The position numbers and the translations under genes were made by a program. Below are positions 1,661-12,411 of a stretch of 64,000 nucleotides of DNA, in pieces. Source of the DNA: Caldifarciminota bacterium SM23_42 (GTDB lineage: Bacteria; Hydrothermota; Tepidihabitantia; SM23-42); the NCBI GenBank assembly GCA_001303785.1, contig LJUJ01000001.1:248001-312000 (forward strand), in the 5' to 3' direction. How positions within the stretch are numbered: the stretch's first letter is position 1; each line of letters begins with the position of its first letter. Below the pieces are notes generated by a model, which saw nothing but the letters and a program-made list of their open reading frames with translations, did no database searches and was not told the origin of the DNA.

Positions 1661-2434
1661 TTAGTCCTTCAATATGACTATGTTGTCGATAAATAATTCG
1701 TATTCTTCATCTTCGTTGAGGTCGTGGATAAGCACCTTTTCCACTGTTTTCAATCCCCTTATCTCCAGAAGTTCTGATTCGTATAGTATTTTGACATTCG
1801 ATGCAGATAGCCTTTCCGACAACTCTCCTGCAGCCATTTTCTTTTCCTGGGTGACAAAAACAACCCGCGGCGTCTGTTTGGTCAATTCGAGCGCGACCTC
1901 CATGGAGCGGTCGCCACGGTCGATTACCATTGTCCTTTTGTCCTTGAACACGGAAAAATCAGTTACCTCGGTGTATACGCCTTGGTCCATGAATTCATGT
2001 ATTCCAGCGATTCCTTTCTTCTCAGCGACGTCACGTCCTTTCTTCGGTTCAGGCTTTTGCTTGGTTCGGTAATGCTCGATGGCATTTTTCAGGGCATCGG
2101 CCGCTAAGTTTGAACAGTGCATCTTGATGGGGGGCAGTCCGTCCAATTCATCAGCAACATCCTTGCGTGTTATTCTTAGTGCCTCATCGACCGTTTTACC
2201 TTTTGCCAACTCAGTTATCATGCTTGCAGTGGCAATCGCAGAACCACAGCCAAAGGTCTTGAATTTAATATCTTCAATCTTGCCATCCTTGATTTTAACA
2301 TAGAATTCCATTAGATCACCACAGACTGGATTACCGACTCTACCCACAGCCACGTCGTCGCCTTCGAGGGTACCTACATTACGGGGATTCTTAAAATGAT
2401 CTAAGACCTTGTCGCTATACTGAGTCGATTTCAT
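1661..2434 (-). CDS. iscU: IscU/NifU-type Fe-S scaffold fused to a degenerate thioredoxin-reductase-like NADPH domain
   Basis: Scaffold on which Fe-S clusters are built. Residues 1-125 are a full IscU domain with all three ligand cysteines and the conserved Asp (GNPVCGD, Cys38/Asp40; FGCGSA, Cys63; KMHCSN, Cys107). After a charged linker, residues 150-257 resemble the NADPH-binding half of thioredoxin reductase, ending ELFIDNIVILKD where TrxR has a VDGVFIFIG-like strand. The dinucleotide motif is degenerate: GGGDSA of TrxR reads DRGDRS (172-177), and the HRRD-type phosphate-binding stretch reads TQEKK. No FAD domain or CxxC is present. A strong GGAGG lies 6 nt before the ATG, and the gene follows iscS by 1 nt. 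The N-terminal assignment is firm; the C-terminal homology is by eye. Confidence 0.88.
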   Translation of the reverse strand: MKSTQYSDKVLDHFKNPRNVGTLEGDDVAVGRVGNPVCGDLMEFYVKIKDGKIEDIKFKTFGCGSAIATASMITELAKGKTVDEALRITRKDVADELDGLPPIKMHCSNLAADALKNAIEHYRTKQKPEPKKGRDVAEKKGIAGIHEFMDQGVYTEVTDFSVFKDKRTMVIDRGDRSMEVALELTKQTPRVVFVTQEKKMAAGELSERLSASNVKILYESELLEIRGLKTVEKVLIHDLNEDEEYELFIDNIVILKD

Positions 2435-2435
2435 A

Positions 2436-3599
2436 TCATGCCTCCTCTTTGTATAATGGTGATAATTTTCTCAGACGTTCAACTATGCCAGGTAGTACTT
2501 CCATGACTCCGTCGACATCCTTCTCCTTATTGTATCGACCAAAGGTGATCTCTAAAGAACCGTGGGCTTCTTCATGTAATAATCCGAGTGCAATCAGTGT
2601 ATGCGATGGTTCAAGCGTTTTGGAACTGCATGCTGATCCCGTAGACACTGAGATACCCTTATCCTTGAATGAGAGTAACAGCGATTCACCCTCGATACCA
2701 TCGAATCGGAAATGAGCATTACTAGGTAGCCTCTCGGTCGGATGCCCGTTCAAGTAGCATCTGGGTATTGTTTTCAAGACATTTTCGATTAGTTTGTCAC
2801 GGTATTTCTGGAAGCGCTTCGTTTCTCCGGGCATCTCCTCTTGCATGATCTCGACAGCCCTTTTCATGCCGACGATACTAGGAACGTTCTCCGTGCCTGA
2901 TCGGAGGCCGCGTTCCTGGCCTCCTCCTATCACGAGGGGGTTGATGCGTATGCCTTCCTTGACGTATAGCACACCGGCGCCCTTTGGACCGTATATGTCA
3001 TTGGAGGAGATTGTCAAAAGGTCAATATTATCTCTTTGCACGTCGATCGGTATCAGCCCCTCGGCGGCGACTGCATCGGAATGGAAGACGATACCCTTAT
3101 CTCTGCAGAATTTGCCTATCTCCGAGATGGATTGTGTGGTGCCGATCTCGTTGTTCGCATATCCTACCGACACAAGGATTGTCTTATCGTTCACCCGGTC
3201 GGCAATTCTCTGTATTGCCACGCGACCATACTGATCGACTGGAATCTTGGATACGCTGAAGCCGTTCTTTTCCAGATACTTTGCTATGTTATGGATGGAA
3301 ATGTGTTCCGTTTCAGATATAACGATGCGATTTCCCTTATTCTTATTTCTGAATGCATAGCCGATCAAACCCAGGTTACTGGATTCAGTTGCGCCAGATG
3401 TGAACAATATTTCTTCTTGGTCGGCATTAATGAAGCCAGCGATTGCCGCCCGTGACTCTTCGAGTGTCTTGGTGGCGACATCGCCTACTGCGTGTAGGGA
3501 AGAGGGGTTGCCGAATTTGTCATGAAAATAAGGCAGCATGGCTTCGACGACTCTCGGGTCAACCGGCTTGGAAGACTGGTAGTCTAAGTAGATGTTCAT
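2436..3599 (-). CDS. iscS: IscS/NifS-family protein lacking the PLP-binding lysine
   Basis: Fold-type I cysteine desulfurase homologue of normal length (387 aa). It keeps TEH (His99), ANNEIG (Asn150), the SDA aspartate (Asp175) and the mobile catalytic cysteine in STGSACSSKT (Cys324). The PLP-lysine motif, normally S-x-H-K-x-x-G-P-K-G, reads SSNDIYGPKG, so His-Lys is replaced by Asn200-Asp201. I re-read this codon by codon in the nucleotides (AAT GAC). The Gln that contacts PLP is also gone (DAVAA). A normal desulfurase reaction is therefore unlikely. I recall that an Archaeoglobus fulgidus IscS has the same Lys-to-Asp replacement and still complexes IscU. It is encoded directly before iscU. 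Function here is probably cluster assembly or sulfur transfer rather than cysteine desulfuration. Confidence 0.92.
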   Translation of the reverse strand: MNIYLDYQSSKPVDPRVVEAMLPYFHDKFGNPSSLHAVGDVATKTLEESRAAIAGFINADQEEILFTSGATESSNLGLIGYAFRNKNKGNRIVISETEHISIHNIAKYLEKNGFSVSKIPVDQYGRVAIQRIADRVNDKTILVSVGYANNEIGTTQSISEIGKFCRDKGIVFHSDAVAAEGLIPIDVQRDNIDLLTISSNDIYGPKGAGVLYVKEGIRINPLVIGGGQERGLRSGTENVPSIVGMKRAVEIMQEEMPGETKRFQKYRDKLIENVLKTIPRCYLNGHPTERLPSNAHFRFDGIEGESLLLSFKDKGISVSTGSACSSKTLEPSHTLIALGLLHEEAHGSLEITFGRYNKEKDVDGVMEVLPGIVERLRKLSPLYKEEA

Positions 3600-3986: not shown

Positions 3987-4229
3987 CTATTTGGTCTTTC
4001 TTATTAGAAAGCGTAGCGTATCGCCTTCCTTTTCTATGCATACAATTTCATGCCCTGTGCGTTTTGCAAACCTTTTCAAATCTTCCTCGGCAGCTGGATC
4101 ATCGGCAAGCACCTCGAGGATTTCACCCACTTGTAGTGAATCAATGTTCTCACGGGTCTGGAATAATGGTTGAGGGCAATACAGACCAATACAATCCAGA
4201 GTCTTCTTAGGCCTCACGTCGTTTTCCAT
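3987..4229 (-). CDS. tusA: TusA/SirA-family sulfur carrier
   Basis: 80-residue protein with the CPxP signature (GLYCPQPLFQT) whose cysteine carries a persulfide in TusA. The rest follows the family: LQVGEILEVLADDPAAEEDLKRF, then a HEIVCIEKEG strand. GGAG lies 6 nt upstream of the ATG. It is followed 9 nt later by the DsrE-like gene and then by iscS and iscU, so it probably feeds sulfur into Fe-S cluster assembly or polysulfide handling rather than tRNA thiolation alone. Confidence 0.88.
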   Translation of the reverse strand: MENDVRPKKTLDCIGLYCPQPLFQTRENIDSLQVGEILEVLADDPAAEEDLKRFAKRTGHEIVCIEKEGDTLRFLIRKTK

Positions 4230-4252: not shown

Positions 4253-4759
4253 TCAGAAGAGGGGGCTAAATCTTTGTTCGGCCCAGTACTCTTCCTTTAT
4301 TAGATTCAGCTGTTTTGTTAGCGCTTCAAGATGGCCCTCTTCCCATTTCTGTAATTGACTATACAGCTTGACCGCTGCGGGATCATCGCTCTCTTCTTTC
4401 ATCCTTCGATAGAAATCGATGGAGTTTGATTCCAGCAGGGTTCCGATACTGAGCGCTGTCATCTCGAAGTGTTTGCCCTTGACTCGTTCCTTTAATTCAA
4501 GCGAGTATATGGGACTCTCGCCTTCCAGGGCCGAGGCTTCACCGACGTCTATGATTTCCCACTCATTCTTCTTGGTCAACGAGGCGTACTGTTTCTGTAG
4601 CGTCTCGAAGTGCTTGTATTCATCTGTAGCAAGCATTTCGAATACTTTCTTACCCTTTGGGTCCGTGGTTTTTTCAGCGGCTAGCCTGTAGAATTCAATG
4701 CCATTCAACTCCGCTTGAAGCGCTGTCTCCAGCCCTTTAATCGCTTCAGATTGTTTCAT
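4253..4759 (-). CDS. Ferritin-like/rubrerythrin-type di-iron protein
   Basis: 168-residue four-helix di-iron protein. Two ExxH-containing helices are visible (LNGIEFYRLAAE, TDEYKHFETLQ, SNSIDFYRRM, WEEGHLEALTK), the pattern of the erythrin domain of rubrerythrin. No rubredoxin-like CxxC domain is attached. I start at the ATG at 4759, which has AAGGAG 7 nt upstream; an in-frame ATG 39 nt earlier has none. It leads the sulfur operon (tusA follows 23 nt downstream). Likely role is peroxide reduction or iron handling in an anaerobe; physiological partner is unknown. Confidence 0.82.
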   Translation of the reverse strand: MKQSEAIKGLETALQAELNGIEFYRLAAEKTTDPKGKKVFEMLATDEYKHFETLQKQYASLTKKNEWEIIDVGEASALEGESPIYSLELKERVKGKHFEMTALSIGTLLESNSIDFYRRMKEESDDPAAVKLYSQLQKWEEGHLEALTKQLNLIKEEYWAEQRFSPLF

Positions 4760-4804
4760 TGTGACTCTCCTTGTTTTATCCCTCATAACTTTAGACACGA
4801 CAAC

Positions 4805-4832
4805 ACAGTAAAGATTTATTATGAAATTCCAA
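4805..4832 (-). promoter_or_regulatory. Candidate promoter of the rubrerythrin-sulfur operon
   Basis: On the minus strand TTGGAA, 16 bp, TACTGT precede the rubrerythrin-like start by about 45 nt. The hexamers are weak but the 16-bp spacing matches the other promoters in this window. Confidence 0.35.
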
Positions 4833-4862
4833 GGGATATCTCTTCACTAATCATTCAAAGGA

Positions 4863-5510
4863 TCAACATTGGAGCAGCTTCGATATTTCCCTCATACGCG
4901 CGGTGGCACGTTTCAAATGGATTCGAGTGGTATCAACACGTGCTAATATTTGCGAGAATGAAGCAAGCTCTTTGGATATAGATAACGCATGTCTTTTCCT
5001 GACATTGCTATTCAGTGGTTTTTCACCTTGAAGTTTTTGGTTTCCTTCCATATATCCTTCGGGATAGTACCAGTCTTTGAACCAGGTAAATCCCAGTTTA
5101 AACATCTTGTGACCTAACCTACTGATCACGACCGGCATGCCTGTTTCCAGCTGGGCTTTTGTTTCGCCGTCATTGTAGTATTCCACGAACATCTTTGCTC
5201 CAGCTGCAAGACTGTCCGCAAAAAGCTTGAGAATACTCTCTTCGAATGGAGAATCGAAGTAACTGGTTGTCCTGCCACCCAATCTTATCCGTTCGTTGAT
5301 TTCATATAACTCGACCCATGGCGAGTATTCTGGAGGTCTTCCGTGAAAGACTTTTGCATAGAGCAAATGAGCCTCGGCGCCATTATTGCGAACGTGGATT
5401 TCGAAATCTTGTTCTTCACGAAATCGCCCTTTGAAGGTCTTGTAGATATATATCGTGTGTCTATCCACATGAATACCTGTTTTGAGGGATTCAACTGCTT
5501 TCTCGAGCAT
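4863..5510 (-). CDS. Conserved hypothetical protein, possibly DUF1122
   Basis: 215-residue soluble protein with no signal peptide or membrane helix. It has a mixed alpha/beta look, with an aromatic-rich C-terminal half (GFTWFKDWYYPEGYMEGNQK). The segment LGGRTTSYFDSPFEESILKLF recalls DUF1122, a family known mainly from archaea, but I cannot confirm this by eye. It lies 18 nt after the AEC transporter and upstream of the rubrerythrin-tusA operon. No ribosome site is obvious before the ATG. Function unknown. Confidence 0.7.
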   Translation of the reverse strand: MLEKAVESLKTGIHVDRHTIYIYKTFKGRFREEQDFEIHVRNNGAEAHLLYAKVFHGRPPEYSPWVELYEINERIRLGGRTTSYFDSPFEESILKLFADSLAAGAKMFVEYYNDGETKAQLETGMPVVISRLGHKMFKLGFTWFKDWYYPEGYMEGNQKLQGEKPLNSNVRKRHALSISKELASFSQILARVDTTRIHLKRATARMREISKLLQC

Positions 5511-5528
5511 GCCGTCACAACTGGGATG

Positions 5529-6461
5529 CTAGCCGTAGCCCAAAATCAGCAGCCACAAATTTAAGTATATCCCTGCCGTCATCGATGTCACCAATATCAA
5601 GGAAGCGAATGTTTCTTTACTGAAGTCATATCGCTCACTCAGTACAATCATTGAGAGGGCCACCGGCATGGCGTGCATGAGGACGATTATCGACCGGTGC
5701 GGTTCTGGCAGCTTGAAAAATCCAACCGTGAAGAATGCGATAGCTGGCAAGAATACCGTTTTCAATGCGCTTAGACGTAATGCATAGAAGACTCGTTTGT
5801 ATTCTCGGCCATAAAGAAAGACCCCGAGCAGGAAAATAGCCACGGTTGCCGTCGTGCTGCCGAGCATGTGTATTGGGGTAAGTATTAATTGGGGAATTTC
5901 GATTCCCAATAAAGCAATAGCCAGTCCCAGAAATATCGAGATGATGAGTGGGTTCTTTGCAAGTTTCTTTAAAACCACCCTCAATCCAGACCAGATTGCT
6001 GTGTTTTTTAGCTTGTAGTATTCGAGGAGCGTGATCGATATGGTCACACTGACGACCGCAATTGATACGAGCGACAGGATGGCCAGTTTCTCTGCTTCAC
6101 GTGTAGGAAAAGCAAATATCACAAATGGTATGCCGAAAAATCCCCAACTACCGAAAATCGTACTAAGTATGAGCAGGTATTTTGTTTTCTTGGAAAGCGA
6201 GAGTATTCGTGCTATTATAATATAGAAAACCAGAGCGATGACTACCGGCGTGACGCCCGCGGCCATAAACCTTAATGTTTCGGCATCAAAGTTGGTCTCG
6301 GCGATATTAGCTAGGAGTAGTGCGGGCAGGGCGAAAAAATACACGTACGCGCTTAATACCCGCTCATCGCCTTTCTTGAGTATACCCAACCTGCGTGAAC
6401 CGAACCCCACCCCGATCAGGAGTAGGATGGGTATGATTGTTCTGAGGGCGGTGATTTGCAT
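5529..6461 (-). CDS. AEC-family (auxin efflux carrier) transporter
   Basis: 310-residue polytopic membrane protein with about ten hydrophobic segments in two five-helix halves, as in AEC permeases. The first helix region ends GVGFGSRRLGILKKGDERVLSAYVYFFALPALLLANIA, with the P-A-L-L stretch typical of the family. Members export organic acids or amino-acid derivatives; the substrate here cannot be read from sequence. It is on the same strand as its neighbours, with a roughly 57-nt gap to the ferritin-like gene upstream. No clear Shine-Dalgarno is seen. Confidence 0.82.
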   Translation of the reverse strand: MQITALRTIIPILLLIGVGFGSRRLGILKKGDERVLSAYVYFFALPALLLANIAETNFDAETLRFMAAGVTPVVIALVFYIIIARILSLSKKTKYLLILSTIFGSWGFFGIPFVIFAFPTREAEKLAILSLVSIAVVSVTISITLLEYYKLKNTAIWSGLRVVLKKLAKNPLIISIFLGLAIALLGIEIPQLILTPIHMLGSTTATVAIFLLGVFLYGREYKRVFYALRLSALKTVFLPAIAFFTVGFFKLPEPHRSIIVLMHAMPVALSMIVLSERYDFSKETFASLILVTSMTAGIYLNLWLLILGYG

Positions 6462-6518
6462 GAATCTTTTCGACGTTTCTTCTTGGCCGAAGTGTCTACC
6501 TAAACTATAAGCGGGTAA

Positions 6519-7046
6519 TTAATATTTCCCGTCCATTCTGAATTCTGCAATATCAAACCAGTAGCCGGAATTAGAGACGTAATCGTACTGCGCTTGCAGC
6601 AAATCGTAATGGGACTTCTCCTCGTTTGTTATTCTATTGAATATTTCGCGCGCCTTGGTGTCAGTAGTGCGCTTAGCTGCATCGTCAAAAAAATCGATCG
6701 CCTTCCGCTCCAATTCCATACCTATACTGATCGCTTCTAGCTCACTCGAACGCCCAGCCTTGGCAGCACTTTCGACTCTCTTTGTCAGCGCTGCAATAAT
6801 GGGTGATTCATCTCTTGATTCACCGGTGTCGACTTGCTTCTTCCAATCTTCTCCGACAGCTTTGGTGAACATATCACTAAAGACCTTGAGGTGTTGAGCT
6901 TCATCATTTGCGAGTTTCCGGAACATCTTTTTGCCGAGTTCATTGCGTGTGGCTTCAGCAACGTGTTCAAAGAAAGCCTTTCCGTTCAACTCCAATTCTA
7001 TTGATTCCTTGATTACCTCGATTATTTCGTTTGTTATTTCTGCCAT
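6519..7046 (-). CDS. Ferritin-like/rubrerythrin-type di-iron protein
   Basis: 175 residues with the erythrin pattern: ELNGKAFFEHVAE, DEAQHLKVFS, ELERKAIDFFDDA, NEEKSHYDLLQ. These supply two ExxH motifs and paired helix glutamates for a di-iron site. It resembles the product at 4253-4759, including the GYWFDIAEF tail, so the two are probably paralogues. AGAGG precedes the ATG by 6 nt. No rubredoxin domain is attached; rubredoxin and a desulforedoxin-like protein are encoded nearby and could donate electrons. Confidence 0.83.
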   Translation of the reverse strand: MAEITNEIIEVIKESIELELNGKAFFEHVAEATRNELGKKMFRKLANDEAQHLKVFSDMFTKAVGEDWKKQVDTGESRDESPIIAALTKRVESAAKAGRSSELEAISIGMELERKAIDFFDDAAKRTTDTKAREIFNRITNEEKSHYDLLQAQYDYVSNSGYWFDIAEFRMDGKY

Positions 7047-7094
7047 TATTACCTCTTTTGAATAAAATGAATGATGGAAGATGTTAGGCCAAGA

Positions 7095-7117
7095 AGAGGG
7101 AAGGTTACCTTCCCTCT
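7095..7117 (-). terminator. 10-bp hairpin between two ferritin-like genes
   Basis: AGAGGGAAGG, loop of 3, CCTTCCCTCT. It lies about 90 nt after the stop of the gene ending at 7204 and about 50 nt before the start at 7046. There is no strong U-run, so termination or attenuation are both possible. Confidence 0.5.
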
Positions 7118-7203
7118 CATGATTCTTCCATGGTGTTGAGAAACCTCAATCCTGGGAGCATTTCTGGTTCATTAATCTTATGGCCTGAATTTATTCTAAT
7201 GTA

Positions 7204-7623
7204 CTAACTTTCTTCCAGCAAACCGGAAAACGTGTCGTGGTGCTCTTCTTCGTCAGCTAGTATCTTCTGGAACATTCTCTTGGTTACTTCATCGCCCTCT
7301 TTCTTTGCCATGTCAATGATTTGCTTGTACATCTTTATGGCGCCTTCCTCGTCACTCTTGTCGTGCTCTATCATTTCCTTCAGACTTCCGCCGACAAATA
7401 TCGGTTCGGGTTTAGTCGTCGGAGTGCCACCGAGGTAGGTTAGACGTTCGGCGATGTCCTCAGCATGCTTCATTTCGGTTATAGCGATGCTCTTCAGTTC
7501 GTCTTTAACCGCAAAAGCCTTTACGCCTTTCCACATGACGTGCTGCCACATATACTGCACAACGACCTGCAGCTCCCTCGCAATTGCTTTGTTCAACATA
7601 TCTAGCATTTCTTTCGATGCCAT
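7204..7623 (-). CDS. Bacterioferritin-like/ferritin-fold protein
   Basis: 139-residue four-helix protein. Di-iron ligands are visible as ARELQVVVQYMWQHVMW, ITEMKHAEDIAER and ADEEEHHDTFSG, the bacterioferritin/Dps-like arrangement, and the LTYLGGTPTTKP loop is typical of bacterioferritin-type proteins. AGGAGG lies 8 nt before the ATG. The small desulforedoxin-like gene lies 18 nt upstream with an almost identical ribosome-binding site, and another ferritin-like gene precedes that, so the three form one operon for iron or peroxide handling. Confidence 0.84.
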   Translation of the reverse strand: MASKEMLDMLNKAIARELQVVVQYMWQHVMWKGVKAFAVKDELKSIAITEMKHAEDIAERLTYLGGTPTTKPEPIFVGGSLKEMIEHDKSDEEGAIKMYKQIIDMAKKEGDEVTKRMFQKILADEEEHHDTFSGLLEES

Positions 7624-7641
7624 TTTTGCCTCCTCTTGTTT

Positions 7642-7803
7642 CTATTTTGTTTTTCTTTTTTTCTTCATTGGTTTTTCACAACAGACTATGTCACACATAT
7701 CGACACAGCCACATACTTCATCGACTTTCACAACTAGGCCACAAACAGCGCATTTGTATTTATCTCCTTTTCTTATCTTCGTTTTCTTTTTGGTTCTTGG
7801 CAT
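7642..7803 (-). CDS. Desulforedoxin/rubredoxin-like small metal protein
   Basis: 53 residues, too short for most automatic calls. It has a basic N-terminus (MPRTKKKTKIRKG) and then KYKCAVCGLVV, a central CGC, and a MCDIVCCEKPM end. The pairing of an N-terminal CxxC with a C-terminal CC followed by x-x-P-M matches desulforedoxin-type iron sites, but three further cysteines (CGC and MC) are extra. AGGAGG lies 8 nt before the ATG. It sits between two ferritin-like genes, so an electron-donor role to them is likely but inferred. Confidence 0.82.
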   Translation of the reverse strand: MPRTKKKTKIRKGDKYKCAVCGLVVKVDEVCGCVDMCDIVCCEKPMKKKRKTK

Positions 7804-7850
7804 TTTTGCCTCCTAATTGCTGTGTTGCGTAAAGATACCCGCTCGAACCC

Positions 7851-8348
7851 TTATTCTTCCTTGCGGATACAGGAATCAGCGACGTCATCGCTGCATTTTG
7901 TCAGTTTTACAAAATGCCTTCTTTCTTCATCAATTATTTTGTCGACCAGATCCCGTTGGTTCTGCGGCACAAGCTTCTTCACTTCTTGATAATAGAGTAT
8001 TGAATCGAGTTCACGATTGATTGCGAATTTGAGTGCGGTAGAGGCATCAGAGATTTTGTTCATTTCTTCATCCATTTTTTTAGGCGTGAAAATGATGTTG
8101 TCAGCATAGGCGCGTAGATAGGCGAAGTACTCTCCGGGGTAGCTTTCGAAAGGCTCGTATTCTTCAATTTTTGACAACATTGCTTCATAGGTCTTTTTGT
8201 GTTTCGTTTCTTCATCGGCAAGGGCAGAAAACAACGTTTTAACTTCGGCATTCTCTAATTTCTCAGCCATTTCACGATAGAATTTCTCCCCGCCTTCTTC
8301 TATTCGAATAGCAAACTGGAATACTTCACTGGGTTCGAAAACGCTCAT
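7851..8348 (-). CDS. Ferritin-like/rubrerythrin-type di-iron protein
   Basis: 165 residues with the erythrin signature: RIEEGGEKFYREMAE, DEETKHKKTYEAM, INRELDSILYYQEV and DEERRHFVKLTK. Of the four ferritin-like products here this one is closest to the YciF/rubrerythrin-domain type. AAAGGAGGT sits 7 nt before the ATG, and a good promoter lies just upstream, so it heads the three-gene unit with the desulforedoxin-like and bacterioferritin-like genes. Confidence 0.84.
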   Translation of the reverse strand: MSVFEPSEVFQFAIRIEEGGEKFYREMAEKLENAEVKTLFSALADEETKHKKTYEAMLSKIEEYEPFESYPGEYFAYLRAYADNIIFTPKKMDEEMNKISDASTALKFAINRELDSILYYQEVKKLVPQNQRDLVDKIIDEERRHFVKLTKCSDDVADSCIRKEE

Positions 8349-8391
8349 CAGTGACCTCCTTTATCTAGTTAAAGCTATTTTCTTCATATTA

Positions 8392-8419
8392 TTATTATTC
8401 ATATTCGGTTACCTGTCAA
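8392..8419 (-). promoter_or_regulatory. Promoter of ferritin-like/desulforedoxin-like operon
   Basis: Minus strand TTGACA, 16 bp, TAATAA, followed by an AT-rich repeat and the AAAGGAGGT ribosome site of the gene starting at 8348. Confidence 0.7.
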
Positions 8420-8426
8420 CACAAGC

Positions 8427-9611
8427 CTAAAGAAGCTGACACTCGTGATGCTTTTGTAGAATCGCATCCGCTAGCTCGTCTAGTGCAACAAGATCGCCAT
8501 CCTTAGGATGGCCCTTGATGATGACAGGTTTGACCAATTCAACTTTCAGATTCCCGAGCATGCTACTGATTTGTTCCGGCATCTTGCCTCCCCAGCCATA
8601 AGAACCGATTATCGAAGCATATTTGGTTTTTGGACGAAGAGCATTGGCAAGATATGTCGCATAGACTGCAACTGGATGAGGGCCGACCAGAACCGTGGGT
8701 GTGGCAATGACGATAGTCGCCGCATCAACAAGCGCGATGGCTAGTTCGCCAATATCCGTTTTCGTGAGGTTGAATGGTTTGACCGTAATGCCCCTCTTAA
8801 TAAGAGCATCGGTGAAGTGCTTGACCATTTTCTCGGTGCTGCCGTGCATAGACACATATGGTAGAATGACTTCGTTCTTAACCGTGTCGGATGTCCAGTC
8901 GCGATACGCGTCGAGGATGAACTTGGGTCTATTGTGAATAGGGCCATGGCTCGGTGCAATCATGCTGATATTATATTCCTCCAATGTCTTCAGGTGTTTC
9001 TGGATGATATGTCTAAATGGCATCATTATTTCGGCGTAGTAGCGCTTTGCCGTTTCGTAAATTCGTGCTTCATCGACAGCATACATGTCGCTGGTCGCAA
9101 GATGTGACCCAAACAGGTCGCAAGGAAATAATATCTTGTCTTCTCTTAAATAGGTCAACATCGTCTCAGGCCAGTGGACCCATGGTGCTATGACGAATTC
9201 CAATGTCCTGTCACCCAAGGATAGTGTATCTTTGTCATTAACTACGATGAATTTCTCATCTGGAATGAGTAGATGATCCATCAACATCGTCTTACATTTT
9301 AAATTTGTGACAACCTTGGCGTCGGGAAAGGTCTCTAGCACTCTGGGTATGCCACCAGAGTGATCCTGTTCGGCATGATTAGAGATCATGTAATCGATTC
9401 TTTCGATCCCTATGCTTTGAAGATTCTCGATCAGTTCATCTTCCTTTTCGGGGTCAACCGAATCAACGAGCGTGGTTCTTTCGCTTCCCTTTATAACGTA
9501 GGCATTGTAAGTGGTGCCGTCGGGAAGGGGGATGAGTTCGTCGAAGAGTCTCCGGTCCCAGTGATTGGCACCTACCCAATATACGCCTGGTTTCATTTCG
9601 CGTGCCGCCAT
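8427..9611 (-). CDS. Flavodiiron protein (A-type flavoprotein, rubredoxin:oxygen/NO oxidoreductase)
   Basis: 394 residues. The N-terminal beta-lactamase-like domain carries the di-iron motif HAEQDH, plus ligands in the HWPETM and SHGPIH segments. The C-terminal flavodoxin domain begins LPYVSMHGSTEKMV, the FMN phosphate loop. It reduces O2 to water, or NO to N2O, with electrons from rubredoxin. The ATG at 9611 shares one base with the stop of the rubredoxin gene (TGATG), so the two are translationally coupled. Both lie downstream of the PerR-like regulator and Nfu, fitting oxygen-stress defence. Confidence 0.93.
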   Translation of the reverse strand: MAAREMKPGVYWVGANHWDRRLFDELIPLPDGTTYNAYVIKGSERTTLVDSVDPEKEDELIENLQSIGIERIDYMISNHAEQDHSGGIPRVLETFPDAKVVTNLKCKTMLMDHLLIPDEKFIVVNDKDTLSLGDRTLEFVIAPWVHWPETMLTYLREDKILFPCDLFGSHLATSDMYAVDEARIYETAKRYYAEIMMPFRHIIQKHLKTLEEYNISMIAPSHGPIHNRPKFILDAYRDWTSDTVKNEVILPYVSMHGSTEKMVKHFTDALIKRGITVKPFNLTKTDIGELAIALVDAATIVIATPTVLVGPHPVAVYATYLANALRPKTKYASIIGSYGWGGKMPEQISSMLGNLKVELVKPVIIKGHPKDGDLVALDELADAILQKHHECQLL

Positions 9612-9772
9612 CAATCCGCCTTTTCAAACTGATCTTTGCCCACACCACAAACAGGGCAGACCCAATCGTCGGGTAATTCTTCAAATGGCGTACCGGGTTT
9701 CGTACCTGAATCCGGATCACCCTTTTCCGGGTCATAGATATACCCGCATGCTGTGCATTCATATTTTGCCAT
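9611..9772 (-). CDS. Rubredoxin
   Basis: 53 residues with both rubredoxin knuckles, [12 protein letters not shown] and [12 protein letters not shown], and the conserved [20 protein letters not shown] core. GAGGAGG precedes the ATG by 8 nt. It donates electrons to the overlapping flavodiiron protein and possibly to the rubrerythrin-like proteins. A second rubredoxin is encoded at 42013-42189. Confidence 0.96.
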
Positions 9773-9920
9773 CTTTGTAACCTCCTCTTGTTGAGCGTTC
9801 TTCTACTGTCGGGTATTCAAATGCTTTTCCACACGGGACACTTGCGCCTTCAATACCAAATGCATCTGTGGTGCACTGTGTCACATAGAGATAAGCGAGA
9901 CCATGGTCTGAAAAAACTGT

Positions 9921-10145
9921 TTAGAATACTTGTTCAACAGACTTGACCTCTGGTATCCTATCCTTTAACGTCTTCTCAATAGCCATCTTCAGGGTCATGG
10001 TGCTCATCGGGCAGGTCCCACAAGCGCCGGTAAGCTTTACCCTAACGATACCTTCGTCGGTGACATCGACCAATTCCACATTGCCGCCATCGGCTTGCAA
10101 ACTGGGTCTTATTTCACCCAGCACCTTCTCGACTTTTTCTTTCAT
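9921..10145 (-). CDS. NifU C-terminal-domain (Nfu-type) Fe-S carrier
   Basis: 74 residues, a stand-alone NifU_C domain: [13 protein letters not shown] and then [16 protein letters not shown] with the CxxC that binds a cluster between two subunits. AAGGAGG precedes the ATG by 8 nt. It follows the PerR-like gene by 40 nt and precedes rubredoxin/flavodiiron protein, so it may repair or deliver clusters under oxygen stress. Confidence 0.92.
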
Positions 10146-10185
10146 GATTTGTCCTCCTTATATTATATTAGACACAAAATTTTGC

Positions 10186-10626
10186 TCAATGTTTACGTTG
10201 TTTCTTCAAACATTCTTTGCAGATCCCCTTGAAGTATCCGTGTATCTCTTCTATTTCGTATCCCTTTATGCTCTTTCTTTTTGCGACCGGGCAATCAACG
10301 TCGATATCGACAATCCGTCCGCATTTCCTACACAGAAAATGATGATGGGGTGTGGTGATGAAATCGTATCTGACTTCGGTCCCCGTAATTGTAATTGCCG
10401 ATACTAATCTAACCTTTAGAAAAGAGTTTAATGTGTTGTAGACCGTGGTCATCGAGAGTACAGGCATCTTCTTGGCAAGCGCCTCGTATATTTTCTCCGC
10501 AGTGAGGTGCTTATCGCTATGTTTATTGAGAAAGTCGAGAATCCTGAGTCGTTGGTACGTTGGTTTGAGCCCCCTTGCCGTTAGAAGATCTCTTAACTGC
10601 TCGCTATTTGAAATTGTTTCAATCAT
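10186..10626 (-). CDS. perR: Fur-family regulator, PerR-like
   Basis: 146 residues. The N-terminal winged helix includes RGLKPTYQRLRILDFL and SMTTVYNTLNSFL; the C-terminal metal domain has HHHFLCRKCGRIVDID and CKECLKK, the two CxxC pairs of a structural zinc site. PerR rather than Fur is suggested by a PerR-box-like site over its own promoter and by the rubredoxin/flavodiiron genes that follow. The ATG starts only 6 nt after a consensus -10 box, so the mRNA should be leaderless; no Shine-Dalgarno is present. Metal and ligand specificity cannot be decided by eye. Confidence 0.85.
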   Translation of the reverse strand: MIETISNSEQLRDLLTARGLKPTYQRLRILDFLNKHSDKHLTAEKIYEALAKKMPVLSMTTVYNTLNSFLKVRLVSAITITGTEVRYDFITTPHHHFLCRKCGRIVDIDVDCPVAKRKSIKGYEIEEIHGYFKGICKECLKKQRKH

Positions 10627-10660
10627 GTAATTATTATAATCAGAAATTGACTTATGTCAA
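10625..10660 (-). promoter_or_regulatory. Promoter and PerR-box-like operator of the perR-like gene
   Basis: Minus strand TTGACA (10660-10655), 16 bp, TATAAT (10638-10633), then 6 nt to the ATG. The 15-mer TTATAATAATTACAT over the -10 box and start codon matches 8 of 9 core positions of the PerR box NTANAANNATTNTAN. Confidence 0.75.
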
Positions 10661-10686
10661 GAACGAATTCTTAGTGCTTGAATTGC

Positions 10687-12411
10687 TTAGAGTATAACGT
10701 TGAGTAAGCCGCCAACGATCAAGGCTGAGCTGATCATGACGAAAGCGGCCTTGAACATGTCGACGATGCCCAGTTCTTTGAGCAGAACTACAAACGTAGC
10801 AATACACGGGAAATACATGGTCAGTACGACACTGGCAATGATCAGTTGTTTCAGCGTCAGTCCCAATGGAGCGAGCATGCCGACGGCAATATCCTTCCTA
10901 AAGAAGCCAATGAGCAGGGCGCCAACCGCCTTCAAGGGCAGACCTAACAACCTGGTTGTGATTGGACCGGTTATGTTGCCCAACCAGGTAATAACGCCCA
11001 GCGCGTATAGTATGTTAACGGCAAATACACCCAGTAGGACGAACGGAACCGCTTCGTGCAGAAACCAGTGAATACGCATCCAGACCTTTTTTATCAATGT
11101 CATGAGGTGGGGGAGACGATAGGGTGGTATTTCGGTAAATATTTCGGGACTTTCTCCCTTGACCAGAAGCCTCAATATGTTTCCGGCAACCAGCCATACC
11201 ACGATGAGTGTCGCGAAAACGGGAAACAATCCACGCGCGCCGTACTTCCCGAGCAAACCGGTGATCATCGCTGTCTGCGCGACACATGGGATGGAAATAG
11301 ACATCAGAGTTGCGGCAATGAACCGTTCCCGTTTGGTCTCCAGGATTCTAGTGGCAAGGACGCCGGGTACGTTACATCCGGCCGCCAGGAACATGGGGAC
11401 GATGGCCATGCCGTGCAAACCTATAATATGAAGTGTGTTGTCGAGCAGTACGGCGAGTCTGGGTAGATATCCAGTATCTTCGAGAATGCTAAGAACCAGG
11501 TAGAATGCAAAGATATAGGGTAAGACTGCACCAATAGGCACATACAATCCCGTGGTCAGGATGCCAAATGATTGCTGAAAATCGATCGCGCCGTCGATCA
11601 GTTCACCGATTATTATCTTATGAAGTAAATTGCCCGGCCCAATAACACGCGACACCTGCATTATCAGAGGAGCCCAGATGTTTCCGAAAAACGGCTCGGT
11701 GATATAGGCGATTAGTCCTTCACCGATGAATCGAATAACAAAGAAGAGCAGAAAGAGAATGACAAATGCTATTGGAATACCAGTCCAGGGATGGATGGTT
11801 AAATCACCGAGGCGCTCACCGACTGTATGGTGTTTATGCTTTATGCTCTGCACCCTGTCGACAATTCTACCCACCTCGTGCCAGCGTTCATCATTATCGT
11901 AAGAGTATTCACCCTTCGCTGCATCGCCGAGTCGGTTGACCAACTCCTTAATTCCCTCACCCGTGATTGCCACGGTCGCCACGATTGGTACGCCCAGGGT
12001 TTTTTCTAAGGTATTCACATCGATTGTGATACCGATGTGCTTCGCCTCATCCCACAGATTCAATGCGACGATGACCGGGATATCTTTCTTTAGCAATTGT
12101 AGTGTAAGGTTTAGATTTCTTTCTAGGTTGGTCGCATCTAAGACATTAACGGCAATACTATCTTTTGCCTCGACCGCGCGATCAAGCATCGCGACGGCTA
12201 CTCTCTCTGCGGGTGAGGTAGGATCCAGACTATAGGTCCCTGGTACGTCAACAACATCGATCTTCTCTGCTCCTGAGCCTATGCAACCTCGGCAGAATTC
12301 AACCGTTGTACCAGGATAATTCGAGGCAATTACCCTCACACCGGTAAGACGCGAAAATATAACACTTTTGCCAACGTTGGGATTGCCGATCAACAGGATC
12401 TTTTTTATCAT
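10687..12411 (-). CDS. feoB: Ferrous iron transporter FeoB, compact form
   Basis: 574 residues, shorter than the usual 650-770. The N-terminal G domain has GNPNVGKS (G1), the switch Thr in GTTVEF, DVPGTYSL (G3) and NLWDEAKH (G4), followed by the helical spacer and a polytopic membrane part with Gate-type repeats (ILEDTGYLPRLA, AGCNVPGVLATR). It imports Fe(II) using GTP. It begins immediately after the feoA stop and is the last gene of the fur-feoA-feoB operon. No C-terminal FeoC-like extension is present. Confidence 0.95.
   Translation of the reverse strand: MIKKILLIGNPNVGKSVIFSRLTGVRVIASNYPGTTVEFCRGCIGSGAEKIDVVDVPGTYSLDPTSPAERVAVAMLDRAVEAKDSIAVNVLDATNLERNLNLTLQLLKKDIPVIVALNLWDEAKHIGITIDVNTLEKTLGVPIVATVAITGEGIKELVNRLGDAAKGEYSYDNDERWHEVGRIVDRVQSIKHKHHTVGERLGDLTIHPWTGIPIAFVILFLLFFVIRFIGEGLIAYITEPFFGNIWAPLIMQVSRVIGPGNLLHKIIIGELIDGAIDFQQSFGILTTGLYVPIGAVLPYIFAFYLVLSILEDTGYLPRLAVLLDNTLHIIGLHGMAIVPMFLAAGCNVPGVLATRILETKRERFIAATLMSISIPCVAQTAMITGLLGKYGARGLFPVFATLIVVWLVAGNILRLLVKGESPEIFTEIPPYRLPHLMTLIKKVWMRIHWFLHEAVPFVLLGVFAVNILYALGVITWLGNITGPITTRLLGLPLKAVGALLIGFFRKDIAVGMLAPLGLTLKQLIIASVVLTMYFPCIATFVVLLKELGIVDMFKAAFVMISSALIVGGLLNVIL

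Follow-up and report, generated by a model that had tools for sequence, protein, structure and literature searches.

What role is left to an IscS homologue in which the PLP lysine has been replaced by aspartate? The supply of sulfur to iron–sulfur clusters in anaerobes without cysteine desulfurases is, to our knowledge, an open question, and the only structurally studied example of such an IscS that we know of, from Archaeoglobus fulgidus, has been left as an inactive oddity. The gene considered here lies in a 64,000-nucleotide stretch of DNA from Caldifarciminota bacterium SM23_42 (the whole stretch is called the window below), on contig C5 of a 2.53 Mb assembly that is 97% complete. The host is a bacterium of the candidate phylum WOR-3/Stahlbacteria; an archaeal host, which the kinship to A. 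fulgidus might suggest, was considered and rejected, and an archaeal SSU model gave no match in the assembly, which was of no help either way. The gene sits among the following features.

1661–2434, minus strand: IscU scaffold (residues 1–127) with a C-terminal domain; begins 1 bp past the end of iscS
1676–2020, minus strand: C-terminal domain of IscU (approximately residues 139–253), with a predicted fold like the NADPH domain of thioredoxin-reductase/FNR-type proteins and a degenerate GxGxxG
2436–3599, minus strand: IscS homologue of Asn-Asp (ND) type, 387 aa, with Asp201 in the position of the PLP lysine; Aminotran_5 E 5e-74; closest solved structure A. fulgidus IscS 4eb5
2550–2552, minus strand: codon of Glu350, in place of the cysteine-carboxylate arginine (E. 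coli IscS R354; DndA Arg353; CsdB/SufS Arg379; role in PMC3343029, PMC11408855)
2628–2630, minus strand: codon of Cys324, the loop cysteine that is kept (E. coli C328) and does not vary among ND proteins
2997–3002, minus strand: codons of Asn200 (AAT, 3002–3000) and Asp201 (GAC, 2999–2997), in place of His-Lys (E. coli H205-K206)
3066–3068, minus strand: codon of Ala178, in place of Gln183, a PLP/substrate contact (role of Gln in PMC3343029)
3615–3977, minus strand: DsrE-family protein with a TTG start and a Cys in IYVCEASK, 15 bp upstream of iscS; PF02635 E 2e-15
3987–4229, minus strand: TusA with a CPxP motif (LYCPQP), the only TusA gene found in the host genome; PF01206 E 2e-26
4253–4798, minus strand: rubrerythrin/ferritin-like protein upstream of tusA, which in relatives often heads the operon

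The iscS frame is complete, with an ATG start, and its product belongs to the IscS/NifS sequence family, with class-V aminotransferase homology over its full length (PF00266, E 5e-74); its TIGR03402 score, 477.7 bits, lies under the equivalog cut-off of 530.75. Residues 198–208 read S-S-N200-D201-I-Y-G-P-K-G-A. Alignment with E. coli K-12 IscS placed N200 and D201 on H205 and K206, A178 on Q183, E350 on R354 and C324 on C328, and T71, H99, D175 and S198 on T76, H104, D180 and S203. Lysine, cysteine and the arginine that orients the substrate carboxylate are universally conserved in cysteine desulfurases (PMC11408855), and in DndA the carboxylate is held between Asn150, Gln178 and Arg353 (PMC3343029). 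The window protein has the nucleophilic loop cysteine (Cys324, in GSACSS), with Asp201 where the internal-aldimine lysine would stand and Glu350 where the arginine would, the equivalence of Glu350 to the DndA and SufS numbering being judged from a shared sequence motif. An earlier note, made from the letters of the window, had picked out the changes of lysine to aspartate and of glutamine to alanine and the intact cysteine, all of which the codons and the alignment bear out; it had missed the loss of the arginine.

The lost catalytic residues are all that would speak for a pseudogene or an assembly error. The same ND pair was present in 19 other genomes of the host's family and, in all, in at least 118 genomes; divergence from the closest relative amounted to a dN of 0.094 and a dS of 1.6; and 46 positions were near-invariant in the ND set, including Cys324, His99, Asp175, Thr71 and Ser198. 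On the strength of this conservation, together with the complete frame, a pseudogene or error can be regarded as refuted, and the earlier note was right to treat the gene as intact. In-frame stops that a protein search had reported in some relatives were, in the re-aligned loci, the ordinary stop codon at the C-terminal end.

The ND type was followed through GTDB genomes with a motif scan (SS-N-D-[I/M]-Y-G-P-[K/R/Q]-G), which yielded at least 118 loci. All of the 118 matches listed are IscS homologues, 48–72% identical to the window protein, leaving no chance matches among them. Archaeal loci among the matches listed came from Methanobacteriota, Asgard lineages, Bathyarchaeota, Thermoplasmatota and Nitrososphaerota, and bacterial ones included WOR-3, Actinomycetota, delta-proteobacteria, Aminicenantes, Cloacimonadota and a Syntrophomonas MAG. 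The scan fixed N200 and D201 by construction, so that the absence of the Lys206 equivalent from all ND proteins is given by the motif, and left Arg350, Gln178, Cys324 and their neighbours free. At these free positions the Arg354 equivalent was arginine in 1/127 ND proteins, the others having Glu, Leu, Gln, Val, Met or Ile, against 119/119 proteins of the His-Lys (HK) type; the Gln183 equivalent was alanine in 93% of ND proteins; and Cys324 was kept in 100% (ND set and archaeal-phylum sample, described below). With lysine, glutamine and arginine lost, both Schiff-base formation and cysteine binding would be gone, and it is near certain from these sequences that ND-IscS cannot make persulfide from cysteine. 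What it retains is the fold, Cys324 on the mobile loop and the partnership with IscU.

Kinship to A. fulgidus IscS, to which the earlier note had pointed, is close. Its structure 4eb5 is the nearest solved one (E 3e-135) and has an identical SSNDIYGPKG; PDB entry 4r5f holds the same protein with lysine at the aspartate position. Beyond clade and motif, A. fulgidus IscS (4eb5, 4eb7, 4hvk) shares with the window protein the Gln-to-Ala change, the retained cysteine, the IscU partner, the loss of the carboxylate arginine (Leu in A. fulgidus) and dsrE/tusA-linked operons, whereas the window's host differs in being a bacterium with a second, normal IscS and an IscU with an extra, NADPH-domain-like region. 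The A. fulgidus protein is without desulfurase activity owing to the lysine substitution (PMC7585200), and its cysteine ligates the cluster on IscU (PMC7585200, PMC9769115). That it lacks PLP, as the earlier note had also stated, is doubtful, given that 4EB5 is described with PLP shown as cofactor (PMC9769115) and that the PLP-contacting Thr71, His99, Asp175 and Ser198 are kept in 99–100% of ND proteins. These same two observations would fit an ND-IscS in which PLP is bound with no Schiff base, or some other ligand occupies the pocket, and which catalyses another reaction with another substrate. We regard such an activity as very improbable: lysine, His205, Gln183 and the carboxylate arginine have all been lost together, no substrate is known, and the A. 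fulgidus protein is reported inactive.

When the trait columns were left out of tree building, ND-IscS proteins formed one clade (support 98/95) that contains both A. fulgidus IscS and the window protein. Far from the rare class that the earlier note supposed, this is a large clade that extends across archaea and many bacterial phyla. Its bacterial members are interspersed with archaeal ones, and those of WOR-3 occur in two separate places; the mixed branches and the two WOR-3 positions point to lateral transfer of ND-iscS.

Lysine-less IscS proteins were also seen outside this clade. A second group in WOR-3 (21 sequences, support 100; L316-L321, L324, L326, L333, L335, L338, L341-L344, L346, L348, L350 and L366-L368) has Gln-Ser, Ser-Gln, His-Thr, Ser-Thr, Ala-Thr, His-Ala or Met-Ser in place of His-Lys, and has lost the carboxylate arginine and kept the cysteine; among its gene neighbours are rubrerythrin-like and glutaredoxin genes and one for a ferredoxin:thioredoxin-reductase-like protein. 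A common origin of the ND clade and this WOR-3 clade (QS/SQ/HT) was not rejected by an AU test (p 0.445), and for that reason separate origins of the two large lysine-less clades are not claimed. In a third group, from archaea and WOR-3 (L468, L472-L475, L357 and L358), lysine is replaced by threonine, one member having Tyr-Thr, and the arginine is kept; TusA/DsrE lie upstream in 4/7 of these loci. A Lys-to-Leu IscS (L362 in G015, codon CTG) sits among lysine-containing relatives with TusA downstream, and its loss of lysine may be very recent.

Methanosarcina acetivorans IscS1 (MA0808) likewise lacks the lysine, and its iscSU cluster holds additional genes of unknown function (PMC7585200), among which, from the pattern at ND loci, we would expect TusA and DsrE. 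It differs from the ND type in its STGSACFS loop, which resembles the Lys-to-Thr group (TGSACFS in L357 and L358), a separate branch that keeps the arginine; the protein is placed there by this loop motif only.

The feature that sets ND loci apart is what precedes iscS. In the window the predicted operon order is (rubrerythrin)-tusA-dsrE-iscS(ND)-iscU, and the earlier note's description of a bacterial example inside a tusA-dsrE operon agrees with the profile matches, those of TusA and DsrE given above and that of IscU to NifU_N (E 4e-50); the TusA assignment rests on 91.8 bits against PF01206, over the cut-off. How general the arrangement is, A. fulgidus included, had escaped that note. Across 287 non-redundant IscS genes, counting loci whose upstream sequence extended for 1 kb or more and scoring TusA and/or DsrE on the same strand up to 1.5 kb upstream, TusA/DsrE stood directly upstream in 106/114 ND loci and in 0/101 HK loci; they were absent upstream in approximately 7% of ND loci. 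TusA lay downstream of five HK genes, all from one WOR-3 branch. A second sample, independent of the motif, was drawn by protein search of 148 genomes in the archaeal phylum of G185, and its 88 IscS genes gave 24/25 for ND and 0/58 for HK (Fisher p 5e-20, uncorrected for shared ancestry) and 3/5 for the Lys-to-Thr type, with the carboxylate arginine in 0/25 ND against 58/58 HK proteins. The genes are tightly packed (median gaps in ND loci of 13 bp before IscS and 6 bp between IscS and IscU), and the partners at ND loci carry the expected motifs (CPxP in 108/109 TusA, NPxCGD in 107/110 IscU). By Pfam alone, TusA was found in 29/30 ND genomes of the host phylum against 36/117 others (a hand tally of the WOR-3 set). 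Bias of the home-made TusA profile was considered and set aside: it detects E. coli TusA at E 1e-25, and PF01206 gives the same picture. A formal test of joint change in TusA linkage and lysine loss was not significant, with only four independent changes on the tree. Because the ND proteins form one clade, the linkage is probably for the most part one inherited arrangement, long kept and retained across transfers, rather than many independent events.

IscU, the last gene of the operon, has the credentials of a scaffold. The cluster ligands Cys38, Asp40, Cys63 and Cys107 are kept in the window protein and invariant in alignment A1. Past the scaffold there is a further domain of approximately 115 residues. 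Foldseek matched the N-terminal part of an AlphaFold2 model (mean pLDDT 87) to IscU of the A. fulgidus IscS-IscU complex, and the remainder to thioredoxin-reductase-like proteins over their NADPH domain, in agreement with sequence profiles. With its GxGxxG lost, this domain may be unable to bind NADPH. Loci of Methanoperedens type (L087, L146, L156) have IscU fused to a complete FAD/NAD(P) oxidoreductase (425–450 aa), and overall a reductase module accompanied 54/114 ND loci and 0/114 HK loci.

We think it probable that ND-IscS, without desulfurase function, is part of a distinct and conserved variant of the ISC system, independent of cysteine, in which TusA/DsrE deliver sulfur to IscS-IscU. 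In the scheme that we infer, sulfane sulfur would travel on TusA and/or DsrE in the form of a cysteine persulfide, from which it would go to Cys324 of ND-IscS or else straight across ND-IscS to IscU; Cys324 would pass the sulfur to the cluster and also act as the fourth ligand while the [2Fe-2S] cluster forms, a role seen in the crystal structure of A. fulgidus IscS-IscU; and electrons for reduction of the sulfane sulfur would come from the NAD(P)H-flavoprotein modules attached to, or encoded next to, IscU. Such transfers are plausible because TusA and IscU bind E. coli IscS at different, though competing, sites (PMC2854127, PMC11302665), and because TusA and DsrE exchange sulfur in archaea (PMC4175335). 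In Metallosphaera the dsrE3A-dsrE2B-tusA genes likewise co-encode TusA and DsrE that pass sulfur between cysteines (PMC4175335), although that module is tied to an Hdr-like sulfur-oxidation complex and the one in the window to IscS-IscU. Several points weigh against the relay. Sulfur in E. coli runs from IscS to TusA (PMC2854127), so that proximity leaves the direction of transfer unfixed; TusA/DsrE are missing upstream at the minority of ND loci noted above; the linkage is largely a single inherited event; the C-terminal domain of the window IscU, without GxGxxG, may not bind NADPH; some PLP-pocket residues are strongly kept that a pure relay does not need; and in E. coli that lacks functional iscS, free sulfide by itself is able to supply IscU (PMC13015791).

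This last result bears equally on the chief rival, according to which ND-IscS is only a structural partner that holds IscU, with Cys324 as a ligand, the sulfur being free sulfide of the anoxic habitat and the TusA and DsrE of the operon serving otherwise, for example in tRNA thiolation or polysulfide disposal. The title of Pagnier et al. (2015) agrees with a structural-partner view of A. fulgidus IscS. So does the published account of that protein (PMC7585200); H2S can supply cluster sulfur on IscU without IscS (PMC13015791), and the loss of lysine, glutamine and arginine fits. We nevertheless find it unlikely, as it leaves unexplained both why TusA/DsrE stand upstream of more than 90% of ND loci and of no HK locus, and why reductase modules are joined to IscU when sulfide needs no reduction.

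Delivery by TusA/DsrE could also depend on cysteine indirectly. The search for a second, lysine-containing desulfurase that the earlier note had proposed was successful: the host has another IscS (L001, at G000:C12), with a normal His-Lys pair, 48% identical and with its own adjacent iscU, while SufB/D were not found in the host genome. This paralogue might make persulfide that TusA, whose sole gene is the one in the ND-iscS operon, relays to ND-IscS/IscU. ND-bearing WOR-3 genomes mostly have another IscS too, usually of HK type, and E. coli TusA accepts sulfur from IscS (PMC2854127). We consider this sub-case unlikely in view of the A. fulgidus-type genome G310, which has ND-IscS and, among its PF00266 hits, no Lys-type cysteine desulfurase (HK IscS or SufS), the three other matches being an aminotransferase, SepCysS and an MfnA-like decarboxylase. 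In G310 the gene for the crystallised IscS, which shows a single mismatch to the PDB sequence over the part that was compared, is arranged as dsrE-iscS-iscU, and a paralogue as tusA-dsrE-iscS-iscU. An A. fulgidus-type genome thus seems, from those hits, to be without a Lys-type cysteine desulfurase, so that the ND module would be able to exist without one.

The two types differ in their neighbours. E. coli IscS, as a canonical IscS/NifS, shares with the window protein its fold family, mobile cysteine and adjacent iscU, and differs in having the PLP lysine, His205, Gln183 and the carboxylate arginine. The neighbours of HK iscS are an Rrf2 regulator, MnmA and NadA, in whose stead the ND locus has TusA/DsrE upstream; ND operons are often near rubrerythrin, desulfoferrodoxin, ferritin and flavodiiron-type genes. 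This difference suggests a division of labour, with HK-IscS serving housekeeping and tRNA thiolation and the ND module taking on assembly or repair when iron or oxygen causes stress. In the window, positions 4253–12411 of the same strand hold a dense iron/oxygen-stress cluster with several rubrerythrin/ferritin-like genes, a flavodiiron-like gene (8427–9614), a Fur-like regulator (10186–10626) and a FeoB-like gene (10687–12411), the last three called by eye, as well as an Nfu-like protein (9921–10145). A DUF1122 protein (4863–5510, E 1e-54) is encoded upstream of the operon.

The lysine-less type itself was previously known from A. fulgidus and M. acetivorans. New here are the loss of the arginine in ND proteins, the TusA/DsrE linkage, the same gene order in A. 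fulgidus and the reductase-like module with IscU. A literature search with little coverage of subscription journals and preprints returned no paper joining TusA, DsrE, IscS, IscU and archaea, and the linkage may already have been noted elsewhere.

Taken jointly, the observations can be read as a further mode of ISC assembly, widespread among anaerobes of both archaea and bacteria. Here IscS would have given up desulfurase chemistry and would act as sulfur relay and ligand, sulfur, whether inorganic or sulfane, would enter via TusA/DsrE, and an IscU-attached flavoprotein reductase would give the electrons; the lysine would have been lost repeatedly, also in other WOR-3 and archaeal branches (QS, SQ, HT and others). 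We hold this combined reading only tentatively, at a little short of an even chance. The near-constant operon of TusA/DsrE with IscU suggests a widespread route of sulfur into iron–sulfur clusters that does without a cysteine desulfurase. Many genes annotated ‘cysteine desulfurase’ are not such. The linkage to TusA/DsrE, its absence upstream of HK IscS and the loss of the arginine make of the A. fulgidus oddity a testable pathway, for which a methanogen with a lysine-less iscS1 is an available genetic model.
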